A DNA stretch of 53,081 nucleotides, from NCBI GenBank assembly GCA_947385955.1, contig CANDNA010000023.1:1-53081 (forward strand), read 5' to 3'. Below are positions 10,373 through 34,051 of this stretch, piece by piece; position 1 is the stretch's first letter; each line of letters starts with the position of its first letter. Below the pieces are notes generated by a model. The model saw nothing but the letters and a program-made list of their open reading frames with translations, ran no database searches and was not told the DNA's origin. This stretch comes from an uncultured Clostridia bacterium (lineage in GTDB: Bacteria > Bacillota > Clostridia > Lachnospirales > Lachnospiraceae). A program made the translations under genes and the position numbers.

Positions 10373-10408
10373 AAAGAGGATAATAGTTCATTTGCACAGG
10401 AGGTAAAT

Positions 10409-11578: not shown

Positions 11579-11606
11579 TTTAACTTACAGGTTTCAGAAA
11601 CAGATA

Positions 11607-11633: not shown

Positions 11634-11636
11634 CAT

Positions 11637-11668: not shown

Positions 11669-11672
11669 ACAA

Positions 11673-11828: not shown

Positions 11829-11929
11829 AAAGCCCTCCGGGGAGGGATCGCACTGCGTCGGAGAGGAAATATATCGCTGAAGCAATCCGCCGCAGGCGGG
11901 GAATCCTGTAAAGCAGGATTCTTTTTCAT
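11829..11929. repeat. Structured intergenic repeat, copy 2
   Basis: About 101 bp matching copy 1, with a few substitutions and single-base insertions. It again ends in a caggattc hairpin plus T-run, 55 bp upstream of the ABC ATPase start. It may act as a second terminator or attenuator for the transporter genes. Confidence 0.85.
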
Positions 11930-11984
11930 AATATAATCGCATGATACAGGGCGGGCACGGTACTATGACGCAAGGGGGTAAAGA

Positions 11985-14652: not shown

Positions 14653-15602
14653 GCGTGATTTATTTTATTTTTCAGCAGACAATGTTTTTTTCGATTCCTC
14701 TTTTGATTGTAGCGCTGGGCGGTATGTATTCCGAGCGGAGCGGTGTTGTGAACATCGCGCTGGAAGGGATTATGACGATGGGGGCGTTTACCAGCATCCT
14801 TTTTCTGAATCTGACCGGAAAGAGTATGAGCGGCCAGTTCCAGCTTTTGATCGCCATTGTGATTGCGATGGCAACAGGAGTTGTATTTTCCCTGTTCCAT
14901 GCCTATGCGGCAATTAATATGAAGGCGGATCAGACCATCAGCGGTACGGCTCTGAATATGTTTGCCCCTGCCTTTGCCATATTTGTGGCCAGAATCATCC
15001 AGGGAGTACAGCAGATTCAGTTTTCCAATACCTTCCGGATTGAATCGGTACCGGTGCTGGGTAGCATTCCGGTGATCGGTGATCTGTTTTTCAAAAATAC
15101 CTATATTACCACGTACCTGGGAATCGGGATTCTGATTCTGTCGGTGATCGTACTGTACCGGACCAGATTCGGCCTGCGGCTTCGGGCGTGTGGCGAGCAT
15201 CCCCATGCGGCAGACGCTGCCGGTGTGAATGTATATCGGATGCAGTATGCGGGCGTAATGATTTCGGGAGCGCTGGGCGGCCTGGGCGGCCTGGTATTTG
15301 TGGTTCCGACTTCTACCAACTTCAACGCAACCGTTTCCGGTTATGGTTTCCTGGCACTGGCGGTATTGATATTCGGCCAGTGGAAGCCGGTGAGGATTAT
15401 GTGGGCTTCCCTGTTTTTCGGACTGACCAAAGCCATTGCGGCGGCATATTCCGGGATTCCGTTTTTGAGCAATCTGGGGATTCCCAGTTATCTGTATAAA
15501 ATGATCCCTTATATAGCGACACTGATCGTACTCATTTTTACTTCCAGAAATTCGCAGGCACCCCGCGCAAGCGGTGTTCCTTACGACAAGAGCGCAAGAT
15601 AA
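14649..15602 (+). CDS. Nucleoside-type ABC importer permease 2
   Basis: A 317-residue BPD_transp_2 permease with GGMYSERSGVVNIALEGIM near the N-terminus, the diagnostic segment of the second permease in BMP/Nup importers. Its ATG overlaps the previous stop in an ATGA arrangement, so translation is coupled. A hairpin at 15606-15646 follows. Substrate range (purine nucleosides as in B. subtilis NupNOPQ) is inferred from family, not seen. Confidence 0.93.
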   Translation: MSVIYFIFQQTMFFSIPLLIVALGGMYSERSGVVNIALEGIMTMGAFTSILFLNLTGKSMSGQFQLLIAIVIAMATGVVFSLFHAYAAINMKADQTISGTALNMFAPAFAIFVARIIQGVQQIQFSNTFRIESVPVLGSIPVIGDLFFKNTYITTYLGIGILILSVIVLYRTRFGLRLRACGEHPHAADAAGVNVYRMQYAGVMISGALGGLGGLVFVVPTSTNFNATVSGYGFLALAVLIFGQWKPVRIMWASLFFGLTKAIAAAYSGIPFLSNLGIPSYLYKMIPYIATLIVLIFTSRNSQAPRASGVPYDKSAR

Positions 15603-17371: not shown

Positions 17372-18502
17372 ATGGAGCACAGAGAGGAAGACAGTGCATA
17401 CCGGGAGAGTGATCTGGTCTGCATTGCAAAAAGAGAAAACAATCCGAAAAGAAAGTATCTGGTGGTCAATCGGAAACAGGGCAAGCATATTCCGGTTTCT
17501 CCGGGGGAGGCTCTTGCCATGTTCCGTGCACTGGCGGCAAAGCTGGAGGAACCTTACCGGGGAGAGAGGCTGCTGCTGATCGGTTTTGCGGAGACAGCCA
17601 CTGCCATCGGCGCCTGCCTGGCTCTCTGCCTGCATTGCCGTCTGATGCAGACGACCAGAGAAGAAATACCGGGGGTCACATACCTGCATTTTTCCGAAAG
17701 CCACAGCCATGCCACGCAGCAGAAGCTGGTGAAGGAAGATCTGGATATTGTGATGGGGCAGACTGACCGGGTGATTTTTGCAGAGGATGAAGTGACCACC
17801 GGCAATACGATTCTGTCTGCGATAGATGCCATAGGGCGGGTGTATGGCAAGTGCCCTGCCTTTTCTGTGGCATCTCTGCTGAACGGAATGGACCGGGAAG
17901 CTGAAACGGAATATAAAAAAAGAGGGATCCGGCTTCACTATCTGGTCAAAACAGAGCATAGCGGCTATGAAGCGCTGGCAGAACAGTACCGGGGAGATGG
18001 TATCTGTCGGAAAAACCGGGGATGGGACGAACCGCTGCCGGTCCGTATGCTGTACCCTTCCGGCTATCTGGATGCCAGACGGCTGCAGACAGCAGATGTA
18101 TATGGGAGAGCCTGTCAGGCACTGTGCCGTCAGGTGCTGGCCGGGCTGAACCCGGATCCGTCCAGGCGTTATCTGGTGCTGGGAACAGAGGAGTTTATGT
18201 TCCCCGGGCTTTTGCTGGCGTGGGAAATGGAACGGCAGGGGTGCCGGGTCCGGTTCCATGCCACCACCAGAAGCCCCATTGCCGTAAGCAGTGAGCCGGA
18301 ATATCCGCTGCATGTCAGATATGAACTTTGCAGCATGTATGAAAAAGACCGCCCTGTTTTTGTGTATGATCTGGCTCCCTGCGAGGAAGCAGTGGTGGTA
18401 TGTGATGCACAGGAGATGACAGAGGAGGGCACGGAAGGTCTGCTGTCTGCGCTTTCCCAAAGCGGCAGCAGACAGGTGACACTGGTGAGGTGGCAGGGAT
18501 GA
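17372..18502 (+). CDS. Ter-island phosphoribosyltransferase with TRSP domain
   Basis: A 376-residue protein. The N-terminal half is a PRTase fold with the PRPP-loop VIFAEDEVTTGNTI at residues 134-147. The C-terminal half contains TTRSPI (298-303), the signature that names the TRSP domain paired with PRTase_2 in tellurite-resistance gene neighbourhoods. Published comparative genomics of Ter systems predicts such proteins act in making a nucleoside-like metabolite; the substrate is unknown. The gene is coupled by ATGA overlap to the StiP/PELOTA gene. A ribosome site (aggaatggagaagg) precedes the ATG. Confidence 0.85.
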   Translation: MEHREEDSAYRESDLVCIAKRENNPKRKYLVVNRKQGKHIPVSPGEALAMFRALAAKLEEPYRGERLLLIGFAETATAIGACLALCLHCRLMQTTREEIPGVTYLHFSESHSHATQQKLVKEDLDIVMGQTDRVIFAEDEVTTGNTILSAIDAIGRVYGKCPAFSVASLLNGMDREAETEYKKRGIRLHYLVKTEHSGYEALAEQYRGDGICRKNRGWDEPLPVRMLYPSGYLDARRLQTADVYGRACQALCRQVLAGLNPDPSRRYLVLGTEEFMFPGLLLAWEMERQGCRVRFHATTRSPIAVSSEPEYPLHVRYELCSMYEKDRPVFVYDLAPCEEAVVVCDAQEMTEEGTEGLLSALSQSGSRQVTLVRWQG

Positions 18503-19575
18503 GAAGCTCATACCGGGAAGAGGACGTAAAGATCCTTTTAAAAGATATTACCGGGATTGTACGGCCCCAGCCTACAGAGGAACGGGAACGGTTGATCCAG
18601 TCCGGCAGACATTACAGTGAGATGCTGCCTGTAGAATATGTGCCCAGCCCGGCGTACATGGAAGCCTACCGGGAAGCGCTTGCCGCATATGCGGGAGCAA
18701 CGGCGGAGGCAGTGGCGGCTTTGGCAGACCGGGTGAGAGAGCGGCGTGGCAGGGAAGTAACACTGGTTTCTCTGGCACGTGCCGGGATTCCCATTGGGAT
18801 TTTATTAAAACGGCGCCTGAAGCAGTGCTTTTCCATGCAGGTCCCTCATTATGCGGTTTCCATTATCCGGGACAGGGGAATGGATGACAATGCCATGCGG
18901 TACATTCTGGACAGGCATCCGGCAGGGACGCTGTTGTTTGTGGATGGCTGGATCGGAAAAGGTGCGATTGCAGAGGAACTTAAACGATGTGTCAGGGCGT
19001 ATCCGGGAGTGTCGCCGGAACTGGCCGTGGCGGCTGACCCGGCAGGGATTACAGAGCTGTGTGGGACCCATGAGGATATTCTGATTCCCAGTTCCTGCTT
19101 AAACAGTACCGTATCCGGGCTGATCAGCCGGACTTTCCTGAGAGAAGATGTGATAGGGCCAGAGGATTTTCACGGAGCCGTGTATTATGGGGAGCTGTCG
19201 GAGGCCGATTTATCCTATGAGTTTATCCATACGATTGAAAGAGAGTTTCCGAAAAAGCAGGAAACAGGAAAAAAAGAGGGCGGTAACATACCGGAGGCAG
19301 AAAAACAGGTATGGAAGGATAGGGGAATGGATGAGGTGAGGGAAATCGCGGCCCGGTTTGGTATTTCCAATCTGCATTTTGTAAAGCCCGGTATCGGAGA
19401 AACCACCAGAGTGCTGCTGCGCCGGGTTCCGTGGAAAGTCCTGATCGGAGCGGGACGGGAACAGGAGCTTGCGCATATCCGCAGGCTGGCACAGGAACGG
19501 GGTGTGGACATTGTCAGGTATCCTCTGCGGCATTATAAGGCCTGCGGCATCATCAGAAAAATGGATGATCTGTAA
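18499..19575 (+). CDS. StiP-family PRTase-like protein with C-terminal PELOTA RNA-binding domain
   Basis: A 358-residue protein matching the StiP-family layout of Ter islands. The N-terminal region has SLARAGIPIG (91-100) and a PRTase-like loop FVDGWIGKGAI (147-157). After a charged linker (about 250-275), a C-terminal PELOTA-like domain (about 290-355) has RVPWKVLIGAG and ends in YKACGIIRK. StiP was named as a putative cysteine protease, but the sequence looks like a phosphoribosyltransferase fold. The ATG at 18499 overlaps the previous stop (ATGA) with ggtgagg upstream; the GTG at 18490 is less likely. The PELOTA domain suggests RNA or nucleotide recognition. Confidence 0.82.
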   Translation: MRSSYREEDVKILLKDITGIVRPQPTEERERLIQSGRHYSEMLPVEYVPSPAYMEAYREALAAYAGATAEAVAALADRVRERRGREVTLVSLARAGIPIGILLKRRLKQCFSMQVPHYAVSIIRDRGMDDNAMRYILDRHPAGTLLFVDGWIGKGAIAEELKRCVRAYPGVSPELAVAADPAGITELCGTHEDILIPSSCLNSTVSGLISRTFLREDVIGPEDFHGAVYYGELSEADLSYEFIHTIEREFPKKQETGKKEGGNIPEAEKQVWKDRGMDEVREIAARFGISNLHFVKPGIGETTRVLLRRVPWKVLIGAGREQELAHIRRLAQERGVDIVRYPLRHYKACGIIRKMDDL

Positions 19576-19602
19576 GGTAAGGCCGGGCATGAAAAGGCCA
19601 GG

Positions 19603-20562
19603 CTATTCGATGCCGTAAGCCTGAGCCAGCAGCAGGGTTCTGGCTGCCCAGTTGGCATGGGTTTTGCATTCGTTCATCCTCTCTCCTCCAGGGCTGCCCG
19701 CTACAAAAAAGGGACTGTTCTGGTCCCAGTTGAGGATGGCGGCGGCATCTTCCCAGTCTGTCCGGCTGACCCGGAAGGCTTCATTGACCAGTGGGATCTG
19801 TCTGGGGTGGATCACGGTTTTACCGATAAAACCGCACAGCCGGTCCTCCTGCAGTTCCCGCCGCAGGCCGGTGTCCCATCCGCTGCCGCCGTAATATTCC
19901 CATACAGGGCCGGAAATGATATAGTCAGTCCCGAATACGGCAATCACATCGGCAAAGATGTTGGCGATGGTATGAATCTGGTGGATGGATTCTCCGCAGC
20001 GGCGGCGGAAGCCAAACACATTGCACAGATCGTTGCCTCCCACACGAATGTTCAGAACAAGGGGAGAGACTGTATCCAGTTTATCTTTCAGTGTGGACAG
20101 GATAGCTGCTCTGTGGGAAGGGCTGACCAGAGAAGGGCTCTCCATAATGGGCATCATATAATAATGGCAGTGACTTTGGCTGTTTACCTGCAGGATGGTT
20201 TCCAGATAGCCGTCTGCATTGTCGGGAGAAAACTTGGGCAGGATAAAGCCTTTGACCAGCTCCCCGGCAGACTCCATGCGCTCGGTCAGGCTGCAGATCT
20301 GTGCGGCGCTGCGGACACGGATGTAGAGATCAGGCAGATAGAAGTCCGACTTTGCCCGGGCACACCGGAGGCTGTGCAGAGTTTGCAGCAGCATTTCCTC
20401 GGCCTGTGCCACGCAGGTATCGCCGATGGTGTCCTCCAGACAGAGCGCCAGAGAATAATGAGTCCCGAACCTGTCTGTGGTCAGGGAATGTACGATGGTG
20501 GGGTTGTTGGCGGGACAGTACAGCAGCGGTCCCACGTTATAATATGGCAATGCGTCTTTCAT
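19603..20562 (-). CDS. CitE-like (HpcH/HpaI) C-C bond lyase of the Ter island
   Basis: A 319-residue TIM-barrel lyase of the CitE/HpcH-HpaI superfamily, found in Ter-linked biosynthetic modules. Visible features are ALCLEDTIGD (acidic active-site strand), GFILPKFS, MMPIMESPS (a metal-ligand Glu on a barrel strand) and NIRVGGNDLCNVFGFRR. Likely reaction: aldol-type cleavage or condensation; substrate unknown. The start at 20562 has aggaaagg 8 bases upstream on the minus strand; an in-frame ATG 48 bases earlier would put this site inside the gene. It is the only island gene on the minus strand. A TATAAT on that strand (20591-20596) suggests its own promoter. Confidence 0.82.
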   Translation of the reverse strand: MKDALPYYNVGPLLYCPANNPTIVHSLTTDRFGTHYSLALCLEDTIGDTCVAQAEEMLLQTLHSLRCARAKSDFYLPDLYIRVRSAAQICSLTERMESAGELVKGFILPKFSPDNADGYLETILQVNSQSHCHYYMMPIMESPSLVSPSHRAAILSTLKDKLDTVSPLVLNIRVGGNDLCNVFGFRRRCGESIHQIHTIANIFADVIAVFGTDYIISGPVWEYYGGSGWDTGLRRELQEDRLCGFIGKTVIHPRQIPLVNEAFRVSRTDWEDAAAILNWDQNSPFFVAGSPGGERMNECKTHANWAARTLLLAQAYGIE

Positions 20563-20715
20563 AAGCGTTTCCTTTCCTGTCATGAGATTCATTATAGCAT
20601 CACAGCCCAAAAATGAATAGCATATCTTGTCTTTTTATGGTAATATGAAACAAAGGCTGCCGCAGTGTATGCAAAGCGGCAGATCTGGGTTGGCAGGATT
20701 CAGAGGTGGCGTGAA

Positions 20716-22158
20716 ATGGAGCATTCTTATCTTGAAAAAAGGTACAACGTGATGGAGATTACTTCCGTTGCGGGTTTTGCTCATATTAAGGGCGGTATGA
20801 ACGGGAGCTGCAAGGATGTATATTTTCTCAGAGCGATTGGAGCCAATGCCTCTTTTGCCGGTGACATAGCCAGAATGGACAGGGAACTGACAGGGCGGAT
20901 GGCGCAGGGCGGGGGAATCTATCACAGGACGGGCCCTTTTCCCAGGAGCATTCCTCCGGATGAGGTCCAGGTTTATGCGGCCTGTTACGAAGCCTGGGCG
21001 AGGACAGGAAGAAGGCGTCTTTTTACCAGAGCGCTGCCTGAGGCATCGGGCATGGGAGAGCTGCTTGGCACAGCCTGTCTGAAAACACTGGAGGCTTATC
21101 ATAAGAGCAATGAAAACATAAGCCAGTCCATTGAAAAAAATTTTATCATCAAGCTGTTATACTGGACGGACACACTGGCGCTTTCCTGTCTGAAACACTG
21201 GGATCCCAGAGCGTCCATGAAATTTATTGCCCAGGGGATTGTGAAGGAACAGGAATACCTGTTCTGCTACTATCTGACTCTGCTGGGGATTGATGTGCTC
21301 CTTCTGCAGAATGAAAAAGATATAGACGGAAAGCTGGACGGGCTGCATCTGTCCGGTACCTTTATTTTGGGCGAAAAAAAGGCGGTATATCTGGAAGCCT
21401 ATGACAGGACAAAGTATGAAAAGGAGAGCAGGCCGCAGCCGGTTCCGGCAGTGGCGGCGCACCCGCAGGCAGTGGACCTGAGGCGTCCTCATCCTCCCGG
21501 GAACCGGAAAAGCGTACCGGCCCGGACGGCAGCCACGGGAGCGGGCAGTACACCTGCACTGTCAGGAGCAGGCAGAGCTTTGGGCAGGGAGCTGACCTTT
21601 GAAGAGCTGGCTCTGAAAGCGGCTTCTGTTGTGATGATTGCCCTGCACGGGAGCGACGGCGCGGTGGTAGGCAGCGGTTCCGGCATTATGATCGGCAGGA
21701 ACGGTTACATACTGACCAATGACCATGTGGCAAGACATGGCCGCTTTTATTCGGTCAGGATCGAAAATGATGAAACGGTCTATCAGACAGATGAGATCAT
21801 CAAATACAATCAGTTTCTGGATCTGGCGGTGATCCGCATCAAACGCACCCTGGAGCCTTTGCCGGTCTATCAGGGAGGCAGCCCGCTGGTAAGGGGACAG
21901 AAGGTGGTGGCCATCGGCAGTCCGCTGGGGCTGTTCAATTCGGTATCCGACGGCATTATTTCAGGCTTCCGGAATGTAAGGGATGTGGATATGATACAGT
22001 TCACGGCGCCGATTTCCAACGGCAGTTCCGGCGGCGCCGTTCTGAATATGTACGGTGAGGTGATCGGCGTAACCACTTCCGGGTATGACGCAGGCCAGAA
22101 TATCAATCTTGCCGTGGGGTATGAGTTTATCAATTCTTTTGTCAGAGGCTTTCGTTAA
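20716..22158 (+). CDS. YceG-like domain fused to a trypsin-like (HtrA-type) serine protease
   Basis: A 480-residue fusion. Residues about 30-210 align with the N-terminus of the YceG protein two genes downstream (22795): VYFLRAIG here at 35-42 with VYFYRICG there at 25-32, KNFIIK at 141 with KNAYIK at 126, and an Asp at 193 with 178, so spacing is conserved. A Pro/Ala-rich linker (about 239-286) leads to an S1C/DegP-like protease domain with His337 (ILTNDHVARHG), Asp369 (FLDLAVIRI) and Ser438 (ISNGSSGGAVLN). There is no signal peptide, membrane segment or PDZ domain, so it should act in the cytoplasm. The start at 20716 follows agaggtgg. The YceG-like region probably anchors or senses within the Ter complex. 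Confidence 0.85.
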   Translation: MEHSYLEKRYNVMEITSVAGFAHIKGGMNGSCKDVYFLRAIGANASFAGDIARMDRELTGRMAQGGGIYHRTGPFPRSIPPDEVQVYAACYEAWARTGRRRLFTRALPEASGMGELLGTACLKTLEAYHKSNENISQSIEKNFIIKLLYWTDTLALSCLKHWDPRASMKFIAQGIVKEQEYLFCYYLTLLGIDVLLLQNEKDIDGKLDGLHLSGTFILGEKKAVYLEAYDRTKYEKESRPQPVPAVAAHPQAVDLRRPHPPGNRKSVPARTAATGAGSTPALSGAGRALGRELTFEELALKAASVVMIALHGSDGAVVGSGSGIMIGRNGYILTNDHVARHGRFYSVRIENDETVYQTDEIIKYNQFLDLAVIRIKRTLEPLPVYQGGSPLVRGQKVVAIGSPLGLFNSVSDGIISGFRNVRDVDMIQFTAPISNGSSGGAVLNMYGEVIGVTTSGYDAGQNINLAVGYEFINSFVRGFR

Positions 22159-22192
22159 AAAGGCCAAAGCAGAGAGTATGGGAGAGTATGGT

Positions 22193-22783
22193 ATGGCAGA
22201 AAGTAAAAGAAAACTGAAAATAGCATTTAATTCACCGGTGGTACTGGGATTTACCGGACTGTGCCTGCTGGCGCTGGCTTTGAACTATATCACCAAAGGG
22301 GCTTCGAATACAGGGTTTTTCAGTGTGTATCGTTCTTCCCTGCTCAGTCCTCTTACCTATGTGCGCCTGTTCGGCCATGTGGCAGGACATGCAGGAATGG
22401 ATCATTTTCTGGGGAACAGTATGCTGATTCTGGTGGTAGGCCCTTTGCTGGAGGAAAAGTACGGCTCTTCCAATATCCTTTTTGTTATCCTGGCCACGGC
22501 ACTGGGGACGGGGATTGTCCATATGGTGTTTTTTCCCCACAGTGCGCTGCTGGGTGCCAGCGGCGTGGTGTTTGCGTTTATCATGCTGTCCTCCTTTACC
22601 TGTGTGCGGGAGGGAGAAATACCACTGACCTTTATTCTGGTGGCGCTGCTGTACATCGGCGGACAGGTATATGAGGGGCTGTTTGTAAAAAGCAATATTT
22701 CCAATCTGACTCATATTCTGGGCGGACTTATGGGGGCAGGACTGGGATATATTATGCATAAGGGCAAAATGAACCGTTATTGA
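22193..22783 (+). CDS. Rhomboid-family intramembrane serine protease
   Basis: A 196-residue polytopic membrane protein. Rhomboid hallmarks are intact: the HxxxxHxxxN helix (His66, His71, Asn75 in GHAGMDHFLGN), the catalytic Ser123 in GASGVVFAFI and the catalytic His174 in NLTHILGGLMG. The start at 22193 (MAESKRKLK) is chosen for gggagag six bases upstream and a basic cytoplasmic end; an ATG at 22178 is an alternative. It is flanked by the YceG-protease fusion (35 bp gap) and yceG (12 bp gap), so it is probably part of the same operon. Its substrate is unknown. Confidence 0.88.
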   Translation: MAESKRKLKIAFNSPVVLGFTGLCLLALALNYITKGASNTGFFSVYRSSLLSPLTYVRLFGHVAGHAGMDHFLGNSMLILVVGPLLEEKYGSSNILFVILATALGTGIVHMVFFPHSALLGASGVVFAFIMLSSFTCVREGEIPLTFILVALLYIGGQVYEGLFVKSNISNLTHILGGLMGAGLGYIMHKGKMNRY

Positions 22784-22794
22784 GGGCAGATTTT

Positions 22795-25074
22795 ATGTTT
22801 ATGCATCGGAAACTGGATGATTTAAATGATTATTTTTTAAAAAGCACGGACCGGATGGACGGGAGCGTATATTTTTACAGGATTTGCGGTTACAATGACA
22901 GCATCGGTCAGTTTCTGCTCCGGTATTATCAGGAAGCGGCCAGGTCAGGCGTGGTCATAGACGGGAGGATTCCCAATCCGGATGAACGGAATCTGGACTA
23001 TTATGAAGAAGTGATGGGACTGGCGTTTATGCTGGACCGGGAATGGATCGATACCAGCCTGTCAAAATGGCTGCCCAGAGTAAAGGAAAGCAGCAGGAAA
23101 CTGCTGGCGGAAGCTCTGTGTGATACGCTGGAGGGGATACGGAGAGAGGGAAAAAATGATAATATGCTGAAAAATGCATATATCAAATTTATGTGCTGGC
23201 TCTATTACCGGTTTGAACGGGTGGTAAACCGGCTGGGAGATACACAGGTACCCAAGATTCTGTATGAAGGAGCAGGCAGCTATTATGAGGTGAAAATGCT
23301 TCATATCCTGTCCGGCGGCGGCTGTGATACGGTCATGCTCCTGTGTCAGGGGGAAGAGGCTTACCGGAAGGCAGATGCTTCCATGACCTGTTCCGACCGG
23401 CTGGAATTGCCGGGAATGGAGGCATTTCCGGAAGGATTTGGCGTCAAATGGCTGAGAAAGGAAATCGAAGAGGCCGGAAAACGGGAACAGGTATGCGGCA
23501 CACCTCCCGCCCTGCAGGTGCGTACCAATACATGGATAGAAGGGAAGGGCCTTTCGGACTTCTTAAAACCGGTATCGCTGCGCGGAGGGGATGCCGGATT
23601 TTATTATAATTGTTTTATGCGTATGACAGGCGTGGAAGATAAGCTGACTTATCAGAGTGATCTGTACCGTTTCTGGACGGAGCTTTCCGGGAGCGGGCGG
23701 AAAACCGTCCTGGTGGAGGAGGAGATTACCCCGCCCTCCAATGAAGAAATCTCTATGGTCAGGAGAAAGCCCTGTGACAGCATTGACAGGCTGGTATTGG
23801 AGCTTTCCGGCAATATTGTGTTTGCCGGCAGTATGGAGCTGCAAAAGCTGCTGCGGGGTGCGTTTATAGACACCATACAGGAAGAGGGGACGGGAGAAAA
23901 CTTAAACAGACTGACAGGCAGGGCAGTCTGTCTGCTGTGCTGGCTGAAACGGTATCAGGAGCAGCTTTTTAGCGGCTGGGAACCGTCCCGGATCGCCTGC
24001 TTTATCTATCTGGGCGGCTGCAGAAATGACAATGAAGCCATGTTTCTCCGGTTTCTCCGAAGGCTTCCGGTGGATGTGCTGATACTGGCGCCTGATCTGA
24101 ACAGAAAATGCTGCCTGCAGTCAAAGTGGCTGTACGAGCTTTCGTATGAGACTTCTATGGATGTCCGCAGGTTTCCCCGTCAGAATGCGGGAGTGCATAT
24201 GCCTACGGCCGCCTATCATGCCGAGCGGGAGCTGGATACTCTGTTGTATCAGGATACCGGCATGTATCGGGACGAGCAGTATCAGAAGGCGGTGTCGCTG
24301 ACACTCCAGTCTATTTATGAGGAGATTTCCATTCTGTGGAATGCGGATTTAAAATACAGGCCCGGTTTTGATGTGACGGATTCTACAGTGACCATGCCGG
24401 TGATTTTTGCCAAGGTATCCGGTGTCAAGGAAGGGCCGCTGAGAGAATACTGGAGCGAAGTGGATAAGCTGTTGTCGCCGGAAGCCATACTGGTACAGGG
24501 CGGGCCGTGCCTGCGGCCGGAGGAGCCAAATCCGATCAGGCCATATGTGATCCATTTTTTAAAGAAGGGCAGGCTGCTGCGGGATAAGATCAGGGAGCAT
24601 CCGGCATATGCCTACGGGGTTTTGCGGGAAGAGATGCAGGAGCATATTCTGGATAAGCTCCAGTTGCTGCTGGATCAGAGGACGATCCGGGGAACCTATG
24701 AAAACGGCACCGAATATACGATTCTGGCAACGGTGCTGAATCTGAGTAAAAATATGGTACGGATCCTGCAGCGGTTTGATTTTACCAAGCGGAACCCCAA
24801 GCTGGTGTATATCCATACATCGGATACATTGATTCCGCTGGAGGACAGTATTCTGGCCGCATTTTTAAATCTGGTCGGCTTTGATATTGTGTTTTTCATA
24901 CCCACCGGTTATCAGTGTGTGGAAAACTATTACAACAGAAAGGTAATGGAGGAGTATCGGATCGGGAACTATATGTATGATATGGGGATTCCCGGTTTTG
25001 ACAATGCTTCGATCAACGCCCGCCGCTCATGGCGTGATAAAGTGTTTAGGAGAGGAGACAGAAGATGGGATTAG
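22795..25074 (+). CDS. YceG-like Ter-system protein
   Basis: A large (759-residue) cytoplasmic protein resembling B. subtilis YceG, which lies in the yceCDEFGH stress operon next to the TelA-like YceH, as here. No catalytic motif is recognised. The N-terminal ~190 residues are homologous to the N-terminus of the protease fusion at 20716, which points to a separable N-terminal module. The remainder is mixed alpha/beta with many Tyr and Arg residues. The ATG at 22795 follows gagggc; a TTG at 22780 and an ATG at 22801 are alternatives. Its end overlaps telA by 10 bp, indicating coupled expression. Confidence 0.8.
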   Translation: MFMHRKLDDLNDYFLKSTDRMDGSVYFYRICGYNDSIGQFLLRYYQEAARSGVVIDGRIPNPDERNLDYYEEVMGLAFMLDREWIDTSLSKWLPRVKESSRKLLAEALCDTLEGIRREGKNDNMLKNAYIKFMCWLYYRFERVVNRLGDTQVPKILYEGAGSYYEVKMLHILSGGGCDTVMLLCQGEEAYRKADASMTCSDRLELPGMEAFPEGFGVKWLRKEIEEAGKREQVCGTPPALQVRTNTWIEGKGLSDFLKPVSLRGGDAGFYYNCFMRMTGVEDKLTYQSDLYRFWTELSGSGRKTVLVEEEITPPSNEEISMVRRKPCDSIDRLVLELSGNIVFAGSMELQKLLRGAFIDTIQEEGTGENLNRLTGRAVCLLCWLKRYQEQLFSGWEPSRIACFIYLGGCRNDNEAMFLRFLRRLPVDVLILAPDLNRKCCLQSKWLYELSYETSMDVRRFPRQNAGVHMPTAAYHAERELDTLLYQDTGMYRDEQYQKAVSLTLQSIYEEISILWNADLKYRPGFDVTDSTVTMPVIFAKVSGVKEGPLREYWSEVDKLLSPEAILVQGGPCLRPEEPNPIRPYVIHFLKKGRLLRDKIREHPAYAYGVLREEMQEHILDKLQLLLDQRTIRGTYENGTEYTILATVLNLSKNMVRILQRFDFTKRNPKLVYIHTSDTLIPLEDSILAAFLNLVGFDIVFFIPTGYQCVENYYNRKVMEEYRIGNYMYDMGIPGFDNASINARRSWRDKVFRRGDRRWD

Positions 25075-26222
25075 ATTTCAGCAGATCAAAGCAGCTCATC
25101 GGAGGGGCAGCCGCTTCCGTACCGGAAGAAAAGTATGAAGTGGAAGTGGTGGAAAGCTATGACATCGTTTCGGACAGGCAGTCCATGAATGCGCAGTTGG
25201 TAGGTTCTCAGGAAGTGGATGACATTGTCAGTACGATTGAGATTGACAATCTGGAAACCATTGTTTCCTTTGGCGCCAAAGCGGCAGAGGAAATTTCCAA
25301 AGCATCGGATGTGGTGCTGAACGGGATGAATATGTCTCAGCTTGACGATTCCAGTGCGATGCTTGGTACGCTGGCCAGGATTATGAACCGGTTTGATATT
25401 GAGGAGATCAAGGACAATCCGGGTCTGTTTGACAAGCTGTTTGGAAATCTGAGAAAACAGCTTGATAAAATCCTGGCCAAATATCACAGCATGGGACAGG
25501 AAGTGGACAAGATCTATGTACAGCTTAAGCAGTATGAGTCGGAGATCAAACAGTCCAACCGGAAGCTGGATCAGATGTTTGAGGCCAACGTGGGATATTA
25601 TCATCAGCTTGTCAAATATATTCTGGCCGGAGAACAGGGCTGCCGGGAAATTGAAGCATATATTGCCCAGAGACAGAAGGACATGGAAGAAACAGGGGAC
25701 AATTCCATTCAGTTTGAAATACAGAGTCTGCAGCAGGCACTGATGATGCTGGAGCAGCGGACCCAGGATCTGCGCACGGCGGAAAATGTGGCCATGCAGT
25801 CCATTCCCATGATTAAGACAATGGAATTCAGCAATATGAATCTGGTGCGTAAGATCAACTCTGCTTTTATCATTACGCTGCCGGTATTTAAGCAGGCGCT
25901 GGCCCAGGCCATTATGCTGAAGCGTCAGCGGATCCAGGCCCAGGCGATGGAAGCGCTGGATGAAAAGACCAATGAGATGCTGATGAAAAATGCACGCAAT
26001 ACTGTGGAACAGTCCAAGATGACGGCACGCATGGCATCCGGCAGTTCCATTCAGATCGAAACGCTGGAAAATACCTGGCGCACCATCTGCAACGGGATTG
26101 ACGAAACCAGACAGATTCAGGAAAATGCCAGAAAGAAACGCCTTGATGACCAGAAAAGACTGGAGGCTATCAAAACAGAATTTAATCAGAGGTACCATAT
26201 GCCCGAAGCAGGGCAATCATAA
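25065..26222 (+). CDS. telA: TelA/KlaA-family toxic anion resistance protein
   Basis: A 385-residue protein of the TelA family (YceH in B. subtilis), rich in long charged helices and probable coiled coil. It contains the family-like stretch KILAKYHSMGQEVDKIYVQL and a long C-terminal helix ending in RLDDQKRLEAIK. TelA proteins are linked to tellurite, phage and antibiotic stress tolerance, with an unproven mechanism. The start overlaps yceG by 10 bp and has aggagaggag upstream. Directly followed by three terD-type genes. Confidence 0.9.
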   Translation: MGLDFSRSKQLIGGAAASVPEEKYEVEVVESYDIVSDRQSMNAQLVGSQEVDDIVSTIEIDNLETIVSFGAKAAEEISKASDVVLNGMNMSQLDDSSAMLGTLARIMNRFDIEEIKDNPGLFDKLFGNLRKQLDKILAKYHSMGQEVDKIYVQLKQYESEIKQSNRKLDQMFEANVGYYHQLVKYILAGEQGCREIEAYIAQRQKDMEETGDNSIQFEIQSLQQALMMLEQRTQDLRTAENVAMQSIPMIKTMEFSNMNLVRKINSAFIITLPVFKQALAQAIMLKRQRIQAQAMEALDEKTNEMLMKNARNTVEQSKMTARMASGSSIQIETLENTWRTICNGIDETRQIQENARKKRLDDQKRLEAIKTEFNQRYHMPEAGQS

Positions 26223-26240
26223 GGCAAGGAGGGTAAAAGT

Positions 26241-26822
26241 ATGCCAATTAGTTTGACAAAGGGACAGAAAGTGGATTTGACCAAAGGCAATCCGGGACTG
26301 AAAAAGATTATGGTCGGCCTGGGCTGGGATGTAAACCAGTACGATTCCGGTGCGGACTTTGACCTGGATGCAGCGGCGTTTATGCTGGGTGAGAACGGAA
26401 AATGTCCTACCGAGAAAGAGTTTGTGTTCTATGGGAATCTGGAGCATGGCAGCAAATCGGTCAAGCATATGGGAGACAATCTGACCGGTGAGGGAGAAGG
26501 CGATGATGAGCAGATTGAAGTGGACCTGTCCAAAATCCCTGCCAATGTGGCGAAAGTGGCGTTTACGGTAACCATCTATGAGGCAGAGGCCAGAAGGCAG
26601 AATTTCGGCCAGGTTTCCAATGCTTTTATCCGGATCGTGGATGAGACAACAGGACAGGAACTGATCCGCTATGATCTGGGAGAGGATTTTTCCATTGAAA
26701 CGGCGGTTGTGGTAGGAGAACTGTACCGAAATAATGGCGCATGGAAATTCAATGCCATTGGCAGCGGCTTCCAGGGCGGCCTGGCAGCGCTGTGCGCACA
26801 TTATGGAATAGAAGTGGCATAA
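26241..26822 (+). CDS. terD: TerD-family Ca-binding stress protein, paralogue 1
   Basis: A 193-residue TerD domain. Starts [19 protein letters not shown], with the calcium-site motifs DFDLDA (39-44) and [13 protein letters not shown] (78-90), then NAFIRI and RYDLGEDF. TerD-type domains bind Ca2+ in paired sites and are thought to scaffold complexes at the inner membrane face. The ribosome site is aaggaggg. Very similar to the next gene, indicating a recent tandem duplication. Confidence 0.95.
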
Positions 26823-26836
26823 AGGGGGAAAATAAA

Positions 26837-27418
26837 ATGCCGGTTTGTTTGACAAAAGGACAGAAGATCAGTCTGACCAAAGGAAATCCGGGGCTGAAAA
26901 ATGTGGTGATCGGTCTGGGCTGGGATGTGAACCAGTATGATACAGGCGGTGATTTTGATCTGGATGCGGCTGCGTTTCTTTTAACGGAAGGGGGCAGAGT
27001 TTCCAGACAGGAGGACTTTGTATTTTATGGTAATCTGACACATCCGTCAGAAAGTGTGAAGCATCTGGGGGATAATCTGACCGGCGCCGGAGACGGGGAT
27101 GACGAACAGATTAAGGTGGATCTGACAAAGGTGCCCGATTCGATTACCAAAATCGCATTTACAGCAACCATCTATGAAGCGGAGGCCAGAAGGCAGAATT
27201 TCGGCCAGGTGAACAATGCTTTTATCCGTATCTATAATGAAGCAAATGGGGAAGAACTGCTGCGCTATGATCTGGGAGAGGATTTTTCCATTGAAACAGC
27301 GGTTGTATTCGGTGAACTCTATAAAAACGGAGCCGAATGGAAATTCAATGCGGTAGGCAATGGCTTCCAGGGCGGACTGGCAGCACTGTGCGCCAATTAT
27401 GGAGTAGAGGTGGAATAA
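26837..27418 (+). CDS. terD: TerD-family Ca-binding stress protein, paralogue 2
   Basis: A 193-residue TerD domain nearly collinear with paralogue 1: [24 protein letters not shown] and the shared ending [20 protein letters not shown]. The start at 26837 follows aaaggggg and aligns with paralogue 1; an upstream in-frame ATG at 26741 lies inside the preceding gene. Differences from paralogue 1 are conservative and mostly on the surface-like segments. Confidence 0.95.
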
Positions 27419-27434
27419 AGGAGGAACCTGAGAA

Positions 27435-28022
27435 ATGTCAATCAGTTTACAAAAGGGACAAAAGGTCAGCCTGACCAAAGACAATGCGGGCCTTTCCAGA
27501 GTGGTAGTGGGTCTGGGCTGGGATGAAGTAAAACAGAAAAAAGGATTTTTTGCACCGAAACCGCAGCCTATTGACTGTGATGCATCGGCGCTGCTGCTGG
27601 TAAACGGAAAGCTGGTGGACAACAGAGATGTGGTCTATTACGGGAATCTGCGGCATATGACCGGTACGATACAGCATATGGGAGACAACCTGACCGGCGC
27701 CGGGGACGGGGATGATGAACAGATCGTGGTGGATCTTGCCAATGTTCCCCAGCAGTATGACAGGATCGTGATTGTGGTAACGATCTATCAGGCGCCCCAG
27801 AGAGGGCAGCATTTCGGCCTGATTGAAAATGCGTTTATCCGTCTTGTCAATGCGGCTAACAATACGGAAATGTGTAAATACAATCTGAGTGAAAATTATG
27901 CCGGTATGACAGCCATGATTTTTGGTGAGATTTACCGGCATGGCGGAGAATGGAAATTCAATGCCATCGGTCAGGGGACCAATGATCCCGGCCTGGGAGA
28001 ACTGACCAGAAGATATATCTGA
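27435..28022 (+). CDS. Divergent TerD-family protein, paralogue 3
   Basis: A 195-residue TerD-family domain more distant from the first two. The first Ca motif is changed to PIDCDASALL, and an insertion EVKQKKGFFAPKPQP precedes it. The second site [15 protein letters not shown] is kept. It ends GLGELTRRYI instead of the FQGGLAALC tail. This pattern resembles the TerE/TerZ-like partner subunits found with TerD. The ribosome site is aaaggagg. 16 bp after paralogue 2, same operon. Confidence 0.9.
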   Translation: MSISLQKGQKVSLTKDNAGLSRVVVGLGWDEVKQKKGFFAPKPQPIDCDASALLLVNGKLVDNRDVVYYGNLRHMTGTIQHMGDNLTGAGDGDDEQIVVDLANVPQQYDRIVIVVTIYQAPQRGQHFGLIENAFIRLVNAANNTEMCKYNLSENYAGMTAMIFGEIYRHGGEWKFNAIGQGTNDPGLGELTRRYI

Positions 28023-28078
28023 TACAGAGTGTGGCGGAGGGATTCCCTTCGCCATACGGACAATTTGGAGGATTGCAT

Positions 28079-30733
28079 ATGAAATGGACTGGACTGAATG
28101 ATCAGGAGGTGCTGGCTTCCCGGGAGAAATATGGCTCCAATGCCATACCCGAATCTGAGCCGACCACTTTTCTGGAAGCATTCAAGGAGACATTCACAGA
28201 CCCGATGATCAGGATTCTGCTGGTGATCGCGGCCATTATGATCGGTATGTTCTTTGTGGGCTATGCGGAGATCTACGAGCCTGCGGGAACGATTGTGGCA
28301 GTGCTGATTGTGGCTTTTGTTTCGGCCAAGACAAGTGTGGCCAGCGATACCAAATACCGGCAGTTGAAAGACAGTACAAAGAAGGATACCTGCAAGGCAT
28401 ACCGGAACGGACAGGTCACTGTCATAGAAGTGGATGATGTGGTTGTGGGAGACCGTGTGCTGCTGCAGTCAGGAGATAAGATACCCGCGGACGGTATCCT
28501 GGTGGACGGCGACCTGCGTGTGGACAATTCCGCGCTGAACGGGGAAGCCGAAGAGTGCAAGAAGTTTGCCGCAAAGGACGGAGCAGAGCTTCCGGAGCAG
28601 ATTACCGGGGAAACGTTTGTGGACCGGCATTCCCTGTTTCGGGGAGCGGTGGTCTTTGACGGTGAGGGTGTGCTGGATGTCCGTAAGGTGGGAACCGGGA
28701 CCATGATGGGGAAAATGGCCGAGGAAATGCAGGAAGATGAGCCGGATTCTCCGCTGAAGGTGAAGCTGGCCAGACTGGCGGGACAGATTTCCACCTTTGG
28801 CTATATCGGTGCAGCGGTCATTGCAGTTCTTTATCTTGTCTTTTTCGTGCTGCATGCCGGGGGCGTATCCGCTTATCTGGCGCTGGGATGGAGTCAGATA
28901 CTGAAGGATGTGGTGGAGGCGGTTTCGCTGGCCATTGTCATTATCGTCTGCGCGGTACCGGAAGGGCTGCCGCTGATGATTTCCCTGGTGCTGATGCAGA
29001 ATACCAGCAAGATGCTGGATCACAATGTGCTGGTGCGTAAGGCGGAAGGAATTGAAACGGCAGGCTCTCTGAACATTCTGTTCAGCGATAAGACCGGGAC
29101 GATTACCAAAGGCTCATTGGAGGTGGTGGAATTTTTCACTGCCCGGGGAGAGACGATCACGATAGCAGAGCTGGGGAGCCATAAGAAGATCAAAGAACTG
29201 GTAGACATTGCCATTGGTAAGAACACGGCGTCCATGTTTGACGCTTCGCATAAAGTAATCGGCGGAAATGCCACTGACCAGGCGCTGATGAAGTTTATCG
29301 GAGAGGACACCTGGCAGGCGCTTTCGGGGAAAGAGCTGGTGGTCAATGCATCTCAGGGATTTAATTCGGCCAATAAGTTCAGTCAGGCCAGAATAGACAG
29401 CATGGGTATGACGTTTTATAAGGGAGCGCCGGAACGGCTGCTTGCCGTAGCGGGAAAAGCGCTGGATCAGGACGGAAACGAAACAGAGCTGCCTTTGGAT
29501 GCGCTCAATAACAGAATCAATGAACTGGCTTCCAGAGCCATGCGTGTACTGGCCTTCGGATATTCCCGGAAGGGCCTGACAGCGGATCAGATCAACGAGG
29601 ATACTGTGCTGATCGGGCTGGTGGCCATCCGGGATGATGTAAGACCGGAAGCCAGAGATGCCATCCGGGAGGTGCAGGAGGCGGGGATCCAGGTGGTGAT
29701 GATCACAGGAGACCGTCTGGAAACCGCAGTTTCCATTGCCAGGGATGCAGGGCTGGTGCAGAGTGAAAACGACAGGGCACTGACCTCTGCGGAATTAAAC
29801 GGTATGAGCGATGAAGAAGTAAAGAAGATCATAAAAGACATCCGGGTGATTGCAAGAGCCCTGCCCACTGACAAGTCCCGTATGGTCAGACTCTGTCAGG
29901 AAATGAATCTGGTGGTGGGTATGACCGGCGACGGTGTCAACGATTCTCCGGCATTGAAGCGGGCCGATGTGGGCTTTGCTATGGGCAGCGGCACGGAGGC
30001 TGCCAAAGAGGCAGGTAAAATTGTCATACTGGATGACAATTTCAAATCCATCAAAGACGCTATCTGGTATGGCAGGACCATTTATCACAATATATTGAAG
30101 TTCTGCAAATTCCAGTTAGTCATCAATGTGGCGGCGGTTGTGGTAAGCGCCATTGCCCCTTTCTTTGGTGTGGAAGAGCCGCTGAAGGTAACCCATCTTT
30201 TGTTTGTCAATCTGGTAATGGACGGCCTGGGCGCGATTATGCTGGGCAATGAGCCGGCGCTGGCGGAATATATGCGGGAGAAGCCCAGACGAAGGGATGA
30301 AAGCATTGTCAGCAGGAAGATGATGACACAGATTCTGACAATGGGAGGCTGGCTGACCATTCTCAGCTTTGTCTACCTGAAGCATCCGTTTTTTGCCGGG
30401 CTGTTTGAAAATGAAGCCCAGCACATGACCGGTTATTTTGTATTATTTATTGTCAGTGCGCTGTTTAACGGCTTTAATGTCAGGGATGAGCGGTTTGGTA
30501 TTTTCAGAGGTCTGGATGAGAACAAAGGCTTTTTACAGGTGCTGTGTATCATTGTGCTGGTACAGGCGGCGATTGTCAATGCACCGCTGATTCCCCTGTC
30601 GGTATTTGCCTGGATCGGCAATATGTTCAGCTGCGTACCCTTTGGCATAACCGGCTGGGCAGTGATTATTCTGCTGGCATTTACCATGATTCCGGTGGAT
30701 ATGCTGCGTAAGTGTGTGGCAAACAGAGGATAA
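28079..30733 (+). CDS. P-type cation ATPase (Ca2+-type, P2)
   Basis: An 884-residue membrane pump. It has the actuator-domain motif SALNGEAEE, the M4 motif AVPEGLPLMISL, the phosphorylation site Asp337 in SDKTGTITKG, a nucleotide-binding region and the hinge TGDGVNDSPALKRADVGFAMG, then six C-terminal helices. The PEGLP motif and overall layout match Ca2+ pumps of the PMCA/SERCA group. The actuator loop is NGEA rather than the usual TGES, but the catalytic Glu is kept. The start at 28079 follows ggaggattgcat; an upstream ATG at 28031 lacks a site. Placement after three Ca-binding TerD genes supports a calcium role. Confidence 0.9.
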   Translation: MKWTGLNDQEVLASREKYGSNAIPESEPTTFLEAFKETFTDPMIRILLVIAAIMIGMFFVGYAEIYEPAGTIVAVLIVAFVSAKTSVASDTKYRQLKDSTKKDTCKAYRNGQVTVIEVDDVVVGDRVLLQSGDKIPADGILVDGDLRVDNSALNGEAEECKKFAAKDGAELPEQITGETFVDRHSLFRGAVVFDGEGVLDVRKVGTGTMMGKMAEEMQEDEPDSPLKVKLARLAGQISTFGYIGAAVIAVLYLVFFVLHAGGVSAYLALGWSQILKDVVEAVSLAIVIIVCAVPEGLPLMISLVLMQNTSKMLDHNVLVRKAEGIETAGSLNILFSDKTGTITKGSLEVVEFFTARGETITIAELGSHKKIKELVDIAIGKNTASMFDASHKVIGGNATDQALMKFIGEDTWQALSGKELVVNASQGFNSANKFSQARIDSMGMTFYKGAPERLLAVAGKALDQDGNETELPLDALNNRINELASRAMRVLAFGYSRKGLTADQINEDTVLIGLVAIRDDVRPEARDAIREVQEAGIQVVMITGDRLETAVSIARDAGLVQSENDRALTSAELNGMSDEEVKKIIKDIRVIARALPTDKSRMVRLCQEMNLVVGMTGDGVNDSPALKRADVGFAMGSGTEAAKEAGKIVILDDNFKSIKDAIWYGRTIYHNILKFCKFQLVINVAAVVVSAIAPFFGVEEPLKVTHLLFVNLVMDGLGAIMLGNEPALAEYMREKPRRRDESIVSRKMMTQILTMGGWLTILSFVYLKHPFFAGLFENEAQHMTGYFVLFIVSALFNGFNVRDERFGIFRGLDENKGFLQVLCIIVLVQAAIVNAPLIPLSVFAWIGNMFSCVPFGITGWAVIILLAFTMIPVDMLRKCVANRG

Positions 30734-30745
30734 AAGGGATGGCAG

Positions 30746-30774
30746 GGCGGCACATGCATCCGGTATGTGCCGCC
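30746..30774 (+). other. Hairpin between the P-type ATPase and HAD genes
   Basis: A perfect 10-bp stem, ggcggcacat (30746-30755) with atgtgccgcc (30765-30774), and no following T-run. It sits just upstream of the HAD start, where it could tune translation or protect the upstream mRNA. Confidence 0.6.
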
Positions 30775-30789
30775 TGCTGTTACAGGACT

Positions 30790-31602
30790 ATGAAAAACAG
30801 GGTTGTTTTTTTCACGGATTTGGACAATACACTGATTTACTCCTATAAACAGGAGCTGGGAGCGGACAGAATCGGTGTGGAAATTTATCAGGACAGGACG
30901 ATTTCGTATATGACACCGGCGACGGTCAGGATGCTGGAAGAGATCAGAGAACATCTCCTGGTAGTGCCGGTGACGACACGGACGAGAGAGCAGTATGAAA
31001 GGATTGATCTGGGATTTGTGCCGGAGTATGCCCTTGTATGCAATGGGGGAATCCTGTTGGAGAAGGGTGTGGAAGTCAGGAGCTGGCGGGAGGATTCCCT
31101 GAAGCTGACGGAGGGGAGCCGGGATGCGCTCAGCCGGGGACGGGAATGCCTGGAATCTGACGAAAGCAGATGTTTTCCGGTGCGCAGTGTGGGAGGCCTG
31201 TTTTTGTTTACCAAAAGCCGGCGCCCCGGGGAAAGTGCAGAGAGGGTGCGGCAGACACTGTGCAGTGACCGGGCGGAGGTATTTCAAAACGGACAGAAAC
31301 TGTATGTGGTACCCAAGGAAATCAACAAGGGTATGGCATGTAAAAGACTGAAAAAGAGGCTGAAAGTGTCCGGCGTGTTTCCCTGCCGTACGATAGCGGC
31401 AGGCGACAGCGCTTTTGATGTACCGATGCTGGAGGAAGCAGACTTTTCCATATTTCCGGACGGGCTGTATCAGGTAAGTGAGGAGGGCAGCGGGGCCGTG
31501 TGGAAGGGCGGTAAGGGTACCTTTTCCGAATTTATGCTGGAGCAGGCCAGGTTATTCATGGGGAGTATAGAGCCGTATCCGGTGCGGGATACTATGCTGT
31601 AA
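30790..31602 (+). CDS. HAD-superfamily phosphatase of the Ter island
   Basis: A 270-residue HAD hydrolase with motif I FFTDLDNTLI (nucleophile Asp10, Asp12), motif II around VPVTTRTREQY, and motif IV GDSAFDVPML (205-214). The cap inserted between them places it in the type IIB (Cof-like) group. HAD phosphatases accompany the PRTase and CitE-like lyase in published Ter metabolite modules, which fits here. The start at 30790 gives the HAD motif at residue 8 and leaves the upstream hairpin untranslated; an ATG at 30739 is possible. The ribosome site (acagga) is weak. Confidence 0.85.
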   Translation: MKNRVVFFTDLDNTLIYSYKQELGADRIGVEIYQDRTISYMTPATVRMLEEIREHLLVVPVTTRTREQYERIDLGFVPEYALVCNGGILLEKGVEVRSWREDSLKLTEGSRDALSRGRECLESDESRCFPVRSVGGLFLFTKSRRPGESAERVRQTLCSDRAEVFQNGQKLYVVPKEINKGMACKRLKKRLKVSGVFPCRTIAAGDSAFDVPMLEEADFSIFPDGLYQVSEEGSGAVWKGGKGTFSEFMLEQARLFMGSIEPYPVRDTML

Positions 31603-31657: not shown

Positions 31658-32581
31658 ATGGCAAAAAGAATGTTGGAGAGCAATGCGTCGGATTTTAAGG
31701 GATTTACCAAAAGGGATCTTCTGGAGTCTATGGCCAAAAGCGAAGGAAGGGTGCTGATGTGTGAAACGATCGGTAACATACGTCCTATGCTGGGAGATGT
31801 GACCAACGCGGAATTTGTATCGGCGATGGGAGCGGATTTTGTGCTGCTGAATATATTTGATGTGAGAAATCCGGAGATACAGGGACTTCCGAAAGAAGCG
31901 CCCTATGATACGGTGCAGATGATAAAGCGTCTGACCGGAAGGCCGGTGGGCATCAATCTGGAGCCGGCAGAAGATGACAGGATGGAAAAGACCGATGAGC
32001 TCTGGCGGATGTCAGAAGGCAGGCGGGCCACACTGGAGAATGCGCAGCGGGCCTGTGAGATGGGAGTGGATCTGATCCTGCTCACCGGCAATCCGGGTAT
32101 GGGCGTGAGCAATGAGGCCATAGAGCGGACGCTGCGTCTGTATCGGGAAAATCTGGGAGACAAGATTATACTGGCAGCAGGCAAGATGCATGCAGCCGGG
32201 ATTCTGGAGGAAGCAGCCGAACAGATTATTACAAAAGAGGATGTGCGGCGTTTCCGGGAAGCGGGAGCGGATATCCTGCTGTTCCCTGCACCGGGCAGTG
32301 TACCGGGCATAACCGTTTCCTATGTAAAGGAACTGGTAAGCTATGCCCACAGCCTGGGGGCACTGACCATTACCGCAATCGGCACTTCCCAGGAAGGGGC
32401 AGATGTGGCAACCATCCGGCAGATGGCTCTGATGTGTAAAATGACAGGCACCGATATTCATCATCTGGGAGATGCAGGATATGCAGGGATGCCTCTGCCG
32501 GAAAATATACAGGCGTATTCGGTGGCGATACGGGGCGTCCGGCATACGTACCACCGTATGGCGGCATCCATTCTGCGGTAA
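31658..32581 (+). CDS. DUF7916-like predicted TIM-barrel protein
   Basis: A 307-residue protein that resembles the family I know as DUF7916 (often mislabelled haloacid dehalogenase-like); I am only moderately sure. Alternating strand-helix pattern with conserved-looking strand ends: MCETIGNIRP, ADFVLLNIFD, GINLEPAED, LILLTGNPGMG, ADILLFPAPGSVPGI, ITAIGTSQEGADV and IHHLGDAGYAGM. This suggests a (beta/alpha)8 barrel acting on a phosphorylated small molecule; that is inference. It lies 55 bp after the HAD gene and 173 bp before pfp. It could therefore close the Ter operon or belong to sugar metabolism. Confidence 0.6.
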   Translation: MAKRMLESNASDFKGFTKRDLLESMAKSEGRVLMCETIGNIRPMLGDVTNAEFVSAMGADFVLLNIFDVRNPEIQGLPKEAPYDTVQMIKRLTGRPVGINLEPAEDDRMEKTDELWRMSEGRRATLENAQRACEMGVDLILLTGNPGMGVSNEAIERTLRLYRENLGDKIILAAGKMHAAGILEEAAEQIITKEDVRRFREAGADILLFPAPGSVPGITVSYVKELVSYAHSLGALTITAIGTSQEGADVATIRQMALMCKMTGTDIHHLGDAGYAGMPLPENIQAYSVAIRGVRHTYHRMAASILR

Positions 32582-34032: not shown

Positions 34033-34051
34033 TGTTGTGGCAGGAAAAAAT

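Follow-up and report, generated by a model that had tools for sequence, protein, structure and literature searches.

The window analysed here is the 53,081-nucleotide stretch at positions 1-53,081 of contig CANDNA010000023.1 (forward strand, assembly GCA_947385955.1) of an uncultured Lachnospiraceae bacterium, and it carries at 17372-31602 a Ter-type stress island in which an HtrA-like serine protease, joined to a YceG-type repeat, is encoded ahead of a rhomboid protease and of YceG itself. All of the genes that a first-pass annotation had named at this locus were recovered by Pfam, NCBIfam and phmmer searches, and its description of a Ter-type stress island with a predicted nucleoside-like module is supported, since TerD, TelA and the PRTase/StiP-PELOTA/CitE/HAD set were all found. 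The Pfam scan covered ten island proteins, with TerD 2 and TerD 3 named by their homology to TerD 1, and the protease start at 20716 is our choice within an open reading frame (ORF) that opens at 20665. The features are as follows.

17372-18502, plus strand: PRTase_2 and TRSP protein of the predicted nucleotide-like metabolite module (Pfam E 6.7e-40 and 3.6e-20)
18490-19575, plus strand: StiP and PELOTA_1 protein (Pfam E 4.5e-101 and 2.2e-30)
19603-20610, minus strand: CitE-like C-C_Bond_Lyase (Pfam E 1.9e-86), divergent from the predicted protease operon
20617-20646, plus strand: candidate promoter of the predicted protease operon, TGGTAATAT (ATAGC, 16 bases, extended -10), placed by exact search
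20716-22158, plus strand: HtrA-like serine protease with N-terminal YceG-type repeat (Trypsin_2 E 7.4e-24; YceG_bac E 9.4e-9)
22181-22783, plus strand: rhomboid intramembrane protease, ORF opening at 22085 (Pfam Rhomboid E 8e-19)
22780-25074, plus strand: YceG protein with three YceG_bac stretches (Pfam E 3.5e-111)
25065-26222, plus strand: TelA (Pfam E 1.1e-101)
26241-26822, plus strand: TerD 1 (Pfam E 2.3e-87)
26837-27418, plus strand: TerD 2, ORF opening at 26741 (phmmer match to TerD 1)
27435-28022, plus strand: TerD 3 (phmmer match to TerD 1)
28079-30733, plus strand: PMCA-type Ca2+ P-ATPase, ORF opening at 28031 (TIGR01517, 534 bits, NCBIfam cut-off 507)
30790-31602, plus strand: HAD-family phosphatase, ORF opening at 30712 (Hydrolase_3 E 3.2e-8, 34.1 bits, cut-off 20.9)

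The protease is tied to YceG well beyond the window. We drew samples of genomes (two from the family, of 397 and 299, and one from the class, of 341, with assemblies of varying completeness) and collected 80 named loci with YceG alone as bait; the latter rank as the top 80 among 454 confirmed, are biased to close relatives and probably derive in part from the same genomes as the family draw, and their genes were labelled with our own profiles, one representative per accessory family being checked in Pfam. YceG_bac matched 41 of the 397 family genomes, 40 of them above the cut-off, and the fusion was present in 23 of those 40 and in none of the other 357 (Fisher p 7e-27). Twenty-two of these fusion genomes came from a single-sequence search with the N-terminal domain and one more (G012) from a profile run on the fetched loci; most fusions missed by the single-sequence search would have shown in the YceG_bac search. 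Fusion and YceG lie in the same stretch in 20 of the 23. Among the 80 baited loci, 55 hold the full fusion and nine a form without the YceG-type domain, giving 64 with the protease, and in one further locus (L181) the match to the N-terminal domain is cut by the contig end. All but one of the 64 proteases are encoded on the YceG strand within the 2 kb that precede that gene, the exception (L177) having been relocated downstream of TerD, still inside the island. The other families recur as well (TelA in 79 loci, TerD 77, pump 71, HAD 61, CitE 52, StiP 50, rhomboid 47 and PRTase 40), with all ten together in 18 of the 80; the grouping of genes in the island exceeds chance. Where more than 8 kb of upstream sequence is available (53 loci), the protease also tracks PRTase/StiP, which accompany it in 39 of 46 loci and occur in 3 of 7 without it (p 0.03). 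At class level, a profile search of the 341 genomes gave 12 matches, among them the window's genome. Nine of the remaining 11 were opened and proved to be seven YceG proteins and two fusions, of which L222 lies in a Ter island and L224 does not. The neighbourhood survey thus bears out the proposed linkage of the serine protease to YceG/TelA as recurrent, and by gene content and position we take the HtrA-like protease to be a genuine component of the island.

Two genomes in which parts of the island are separated help to explain this association. In G398 and G109 the fusion lies near CitE, with other genes downstream, on a contig different from that of the YceG island (in G194 the contig of the fusion is too short to judge its neighbourhood), and together with the relocation in L177 this makes simple neighbour drag an unlikely cause of the linkage. 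It is likewise highly improbable that protease and rhomboid are mere passengers of a mobile block, so that joint transfer alone would account for their company. The island and its alpha-glucosidase neighbour do lie at a different place in another species of the genus (G008) than in the window, and the rhomboid is mostly found elsewhere, but all 23 fusion genomes have YceG, including the two with parts on separate contigs, the L177 protease was moved yet retained, and the protease is fused to a YceG-type repeat. For the protease this explanation is already disfavoured; for the rhomboid it may yet hold.

The C-terminal half of the protease is HtrA-like (Trypsin_2, E-value in the list above), with a catalytic triad of H337, D369 and S438 in the window protein; among 56 fusions the Asp and Ser are kept in 56 and the His in 55, the remaining residue being unread, and the protease is probably active. 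The closest folds are those of Clostridium thermocellum RsgI9 (S1C) and of DegS without its PDZ domain, with HtrA1 and HtrA2 also among the nearest. For the window protease, every NCBIfam HtrA model scored below its curated cut-off, Pfam scans of the window protein and the 56 fusions found no PDZ domain, and simple hydropathy revealed neither a membrane segment nor an export signal in the window protein (top 19-residue mean 1.37), so that the enzyme is most likely cytosolic; 11 of the 56 relatives exceed 1.6, with printed peaks at residues 163-206. Fold and triad agree with the HtrA family, and, as no PDZ domain was seen, we class the protein as HtrA-like only. The N-terminal half consists of one YceG-type repeat, which scores 35.8 bits against YceG_bac in the window (cut-off 25); YceG_bac matches 55 of the 56 fusions (E 0.01), and profile-profile comparison aligns this half with repeat 1 of YceG (probability 94.8, E 5e-8, 19% identity). 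The protease is thus joined to a segment of the family to which its neighbour belongs. The AlphaFold2 (AF2) model has a mean predicted local distance difference test score (pLDDT) of 85.3 and a predicted TM-score (pTM) of 0.59, and the linker at 248-288, where pLDDT is below 50, is probably disordered. This sharing of a domain offers a possible role for YceG as a docking scaffold, in a family for which no convincing solved relative was found: the best structural hit of the YceG fold was UvrD (probability 0.51, TM-score about 0.1), and the YceG profile found no relative among solved chains (best E 0.24 in one search, none in another).

The arrangement of the genes adds to this picture. From 20716 to 31602 every gene lies on the plus strand with overlaps or gaps of at most about 60 bases, so an operon running from the protease to the HAD phosphatase would be expected, and CitE is divergent from the protease in 45 of the 48 loci holding both. 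A promoter-like pattern (ATAGC, a spacer and an extended -10) stands before 21 of 65 protease genes against a shuffled mean of 0.5, an excess that is partly by construction because the pattern was written by eye from those sequences; 20617-20646 is not among the 25 sites (17.9 expected) returned by a generic sigma-70 scan. A regulatory box common to CitE and the protease, sought by k-mers, was barely above shuffles and was set aside. The same layout bears on the possibility that the protease is a housekeeping enzyme for quality control of stress-damaged YceG, TelA and TerD, with no part in signalling or as an effector. Many HtrA enzymes perform quality control, DegS, HtrA1 and HtrA2 are among the closest folds, and the operon-like position is shared with the presumed clients; unlike a typical HtrA, however, the protein shows no PDZ domain and no export signal or anchor, and its YceG-type domain suggests targeting. 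We regard a purely housekeeping role as unlikely.

The rate at which the parts of the island diverge bears on what the protease might act against. Pairwise identities, computed for the 18 of 80 loci that hold all ten families, suggest blocks made up of PRTase/StiP/CitE/HAD (r 0.76-0.92), protease/rhomboid/YceG (0.72-0.85) and TelA/pump (0.86), with the identities of protease and rhomboid following YceG at r 0.85 and 0.82. Between the window and G008, PRTase, StiP, CitE, the protease and YceG are 64-68% identical, as against 80% for the rhomboid, 84% for TelA, 84-94% for the TerD proteins, 88% for the pump, 86% for alpha-glucosidase, 76-99% for seven genes on the left flank (six of them 95-99%) and 82-94% for three on the right. 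The low identity of the first five genes beside the remainder of the island and its ten neighbours, and the patchy occurrence of the islands among the family genomes, would fit a conflict (anti-phage) system in which Ter/YceG senses invasion, the nucleoside-like product serves as alarm and the protease kills the cell or arrests its growth by cleaving host or phage proteins. Ter systems have been described as producing a nucleoside signal against incoming threats, according to the portion of PMC7824862 available to us. This explanation is doubtful. Against it, PADLOC, run on nine island proteins (all except the pump and two TerD), matched only the trypsin part of the protease, to RT-Protease models, and YceG relatives were unconfirmed in viral contigs and amounted to two distant ones on plasmids (22-26% identical). 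A phage origin, for which 13 viral-contig stretches matched a pattern with none confirmed as a YceG relative, and a plasmid origin were accordingly both rejected, as were 18 phage-collection records that match the protease through its generic trypsin part only.

The rhomboid behaves differently from the protease. Its residues S127 and H178, which we take to be the Ser-His dyad of rhomboids, are invariant in 33 sequences. Close relatives (E 1e-15) occupy 97 places in 95 of the 397 family genomes, and 13 of them are directly upstream of YceG, which is far above chance expectation; the gene is also commoner in genomes with a YceG_bac match (26 of 41 versus 69 of 356, p 1e-8). Of the places not adjacent to YceG, 20 were opened, 17 without any labelled Ter-module gene and three beside other Ter-module genes. 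On the rhomboid tree, in which 38 of 68 inner branches are open and the bootstrap has not settled, island copies are grouped more than in shuffled data (11 changes versus 17.8, none of 500 as low), and yet they do not form one clade, with at least four changes forced by well-supported branches. Mostly non-adjacent, enriched in YceG genomes and not confined to a single clade, the rhomboid looks, from these comparisons, like a looser, exchangeable partner that was recruited or released several times, and we dropped it as a fixed island component. The first-pass annotation had held that finding the protease and rhomboid genes in unrelated contexts as often as beside YceG/TelA would make the linkage a matter of chance; by that literal measure the rhomboid fails, whereas the adjacency and the enrichment both exceed chance.

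We consider the most plausible explanation, at a probability of roughly 0.45, to be that the island represents, in Clostridia, a variant form of the known Ter/YceG/TelA stress system equipped with a protease of its own, a reading built on the observed genes, their order, the shared domain, the conserved active sites and the co-occurrence across genomes. The YceG-type repeat would dock the protease on a YceG/TelA/TerD assembly located on the cytoplasmic side of the membrane, and stress (metal, antibiotic, phage or envelope damage) would alter this assembly after being sensed through TerD, which probably binds Ca2+, and/or through a nucleoside-like product expected to come from the PRTase/StiP/CitE/HAD module. 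The protease would then cut local targets, and the rhomboid, where present, may act on nearby membrane proteins, perhaps to control cation transporters as Bacillus subtilis YqgP does with MgtE. If so, the Ter systems of some Lachnospiraceae-type bacteria may act by cutting proteins. The trigger model of the first-pass annotation, in which metabolite and Ca2+ signals at the membrane set off proteolysis, is a hypothesis.

Several observations weigh against this explanation. The fusion is missing from 17 of the 40 YceG genomes and the protease from 16 of the 80 named loci (seven of these with less than 3 kb of upstream sequence), so the protease is not essential, and the nine proteases without a YceG-type domain imply that docking through that domain is not universal. 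The fusion G696 (L224:8208-9623) has no labelled Ter gene within 20 kb, and 84 of the 97 rhomboid relatives are not beside YceG. Moreover, the identity blocks are not clean, in that CitE correlates just as closely with YceG (0.85) and with the protease (0.82), and identity correlations of this kind lack specificity, stemming in part from common descent, which inflates every value. As an observation on the variant itself, the L224 fusion is shortened in its YceG-type part and extended at its C-terminus.

The linker invites a bolder proposal. The motif [VI]x[VIL]x[VILM]Px[RKH] occurs in 23 of 56 fusions against 0.1 in shuffled sequence and in all nine proteases without the YceG-type domain, although it was taken from those nine and applied to 56 fusions already looked at, whose related rows are not independent. 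Elsewhere it appears in 4 of 80 YceG and 1 of 47 rhomboid proteins and in no PRTase, StiP, CitE, TelA, TerD, pump or HAD protein, and the window protease does not match it. We speculate that the island could be a Ter subtype with regulated proteolysis as its output, in which the repeat holds the protease on the assembly, the linker unleashes it under stress and the rhomboid is a membrane-side partner acting on transporters; the Val/Ile-rich motif of many relatives, VxVxIPxR, could then be a docking strand, a pseudo-substrate or a self-cleavage site. We judge this full scheme improbable. The protease forms without the YceG-type domain were seen in L129, L132, L133, L135, L141, L142, L150, L164 and L182, loci in which the linker motif is kept and no rhomboid is labelled.

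The first-pass annotation had also argued for a distinct subtype from the lack of TerC, ATP-grasp and VWA genes; the first two absences are borne out at the window island, and the argument drawn from them is weakened. TerC was not found in the 41 family-draw genomes with a YceG_bac match, the window's included (9 of 14 controls were positive), nor in 11 class genomes, but it occurs in only 4 of 299 genomes of the family at large, one above the cut-off, so its absence says little about the window island, and its loss was dropped as a subtype mark after this family-wide control. In our judgement TerC is inessential to the Ter-dependent class, and the Ca-type pump possibly stands in for it. The ATP-grasp gene that sister loci have between StiP and CitE is missing from the window island, where these two genes end at 19575 and 19603 respectively; an ATPgrasp_Ter-related gene follows StiP in 14 of the 80 loci (representative L123 confirmed in Pfam), and since sister loci have it, its absence was dropped as a subtype mark in favour of local variation. 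The window genome has two matches to the ATP-grasp model, ambiguous because the model also matches 13 of 14 control genomes. The Ter ATP-grasp is not known to be part of every described Ter system. The Pfam scan of the ten island proteins showed no TerB, TerY or TerF/VWA, for which no dedicated search was made.

Further observations concern the surroundings of the island and variation among its relatives. A DUF7916 protein adjoins the island (31658-32581) and has a match in all ten genomes of the genus, one partial, and farther downstream a regulator (34037-35041) matches mad1 weakly in PADLOC (E 2.5e-4), the match being confined to the regulator's first 28 residues. Directly upstream of alpha-glucosidase and the island lies a transporter set (10289-15602; a Bmp-type substrate-binding protein, an ATPase and two permeases), a nucleoside-type ABC transporter that we excluded as an island part, none of its genes having a match when seven stretches from relatives were compared, of which one extends no more than 2.8 kb beyond alpha-glucosidase on the upstream side. 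In L234, from a sister species, only some 3 kb corresponds to the window sequence between 10249 and the DUF7916 gene. The window has no tRNA and no Rfam match. Among the 80 loci, an AIM24 gene lies near the HAD end in 19 (L182:19121-19852), preceded in 17 of those 19 by an additional TerD; a SHOCT-domain protein occurs in 10 (L138:2576-3148), four of which have it immediately between StiP and CitE; and L095:13054-15039 is one ORF of 661 residues that matches both PRTase and HAD phosphatase, an apparent fusion.

The way in which Ter systems protect cells is not yet clear, a point that the parts of PMC6262375 and PMC8115787 available to us also make, and the substrate of the protease would expose the output of the system. 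In the accessible portions of these and related sources, the Ter components listed are a nucleoside signal, TerB/TerD sensors, membrane TerC and TelA/VWA structures, with no protease among them (PMC7824862); a predicted nucleoside-like product and a TerC complex are cited (PMC8115787); and synthesis of two of the five TerD proteins of C. difficile rises under metronidazole (PMC6262375). Searches of the literature, judged from titles and the openings of abstracts, yielded no description of Ter genes combined with a rhomboid or a serine protease.

A comparable fusion is Pseudomonas syringae YP_273108.1, listed in 2008 as uncharacterised (PMC2605481), which similarly joins a trypsin-like protease to a Ter-system domain, although that domain is TerD instead of YceG, the case is a single protein, and the available passages of the paper hold no island survey; it provides one precedent for such joining. 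The rhomboid YqgP of B. subtilis, which acts with FtsH on MgtE, is tied to divalent-cation transport as the island rhomboid may be, but the available part of PMC7231995 describes no Ter locus for it. Jug phages resemble the island in having TerD genes and a Ca2+ P-ATPase together in one genome and differ in that this is a phage genome, for which the available part of PMC12363816 mentions neither YceG nor a protease fusion. The HtrA/Deg family (S1C; DegS without PDZ, C. thermocellum RsgI9) is alike in fold and catalytic triad, whereas the island protease has no PDZ domain, no membrane segment in the window protein, and an added N-terminal YceG-type repeat.

The island also compares closely with the Ter-dependent stress response systems, reportedly set out by Anantharaman, Iyer and Aravind in 2012, to which we assign its gene set. 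The island shares with them TerD, TelA, YceG, PRTase-TRSP, StiP-PELOTA, the CitE-like lyase and HAD, with ATP-grasp in 14 of the 80 sister loci, and departs from them in having no TerC, a Ca-type P-ATPase, the YceG-protease fusion and, in 47 of the 80 loci, a rhomboid. As a Ter island it is ordinary, and, as far as could be checked, what is new is a dedicated, recurrent protease arm that is usually carried on a YceG-type repeat.

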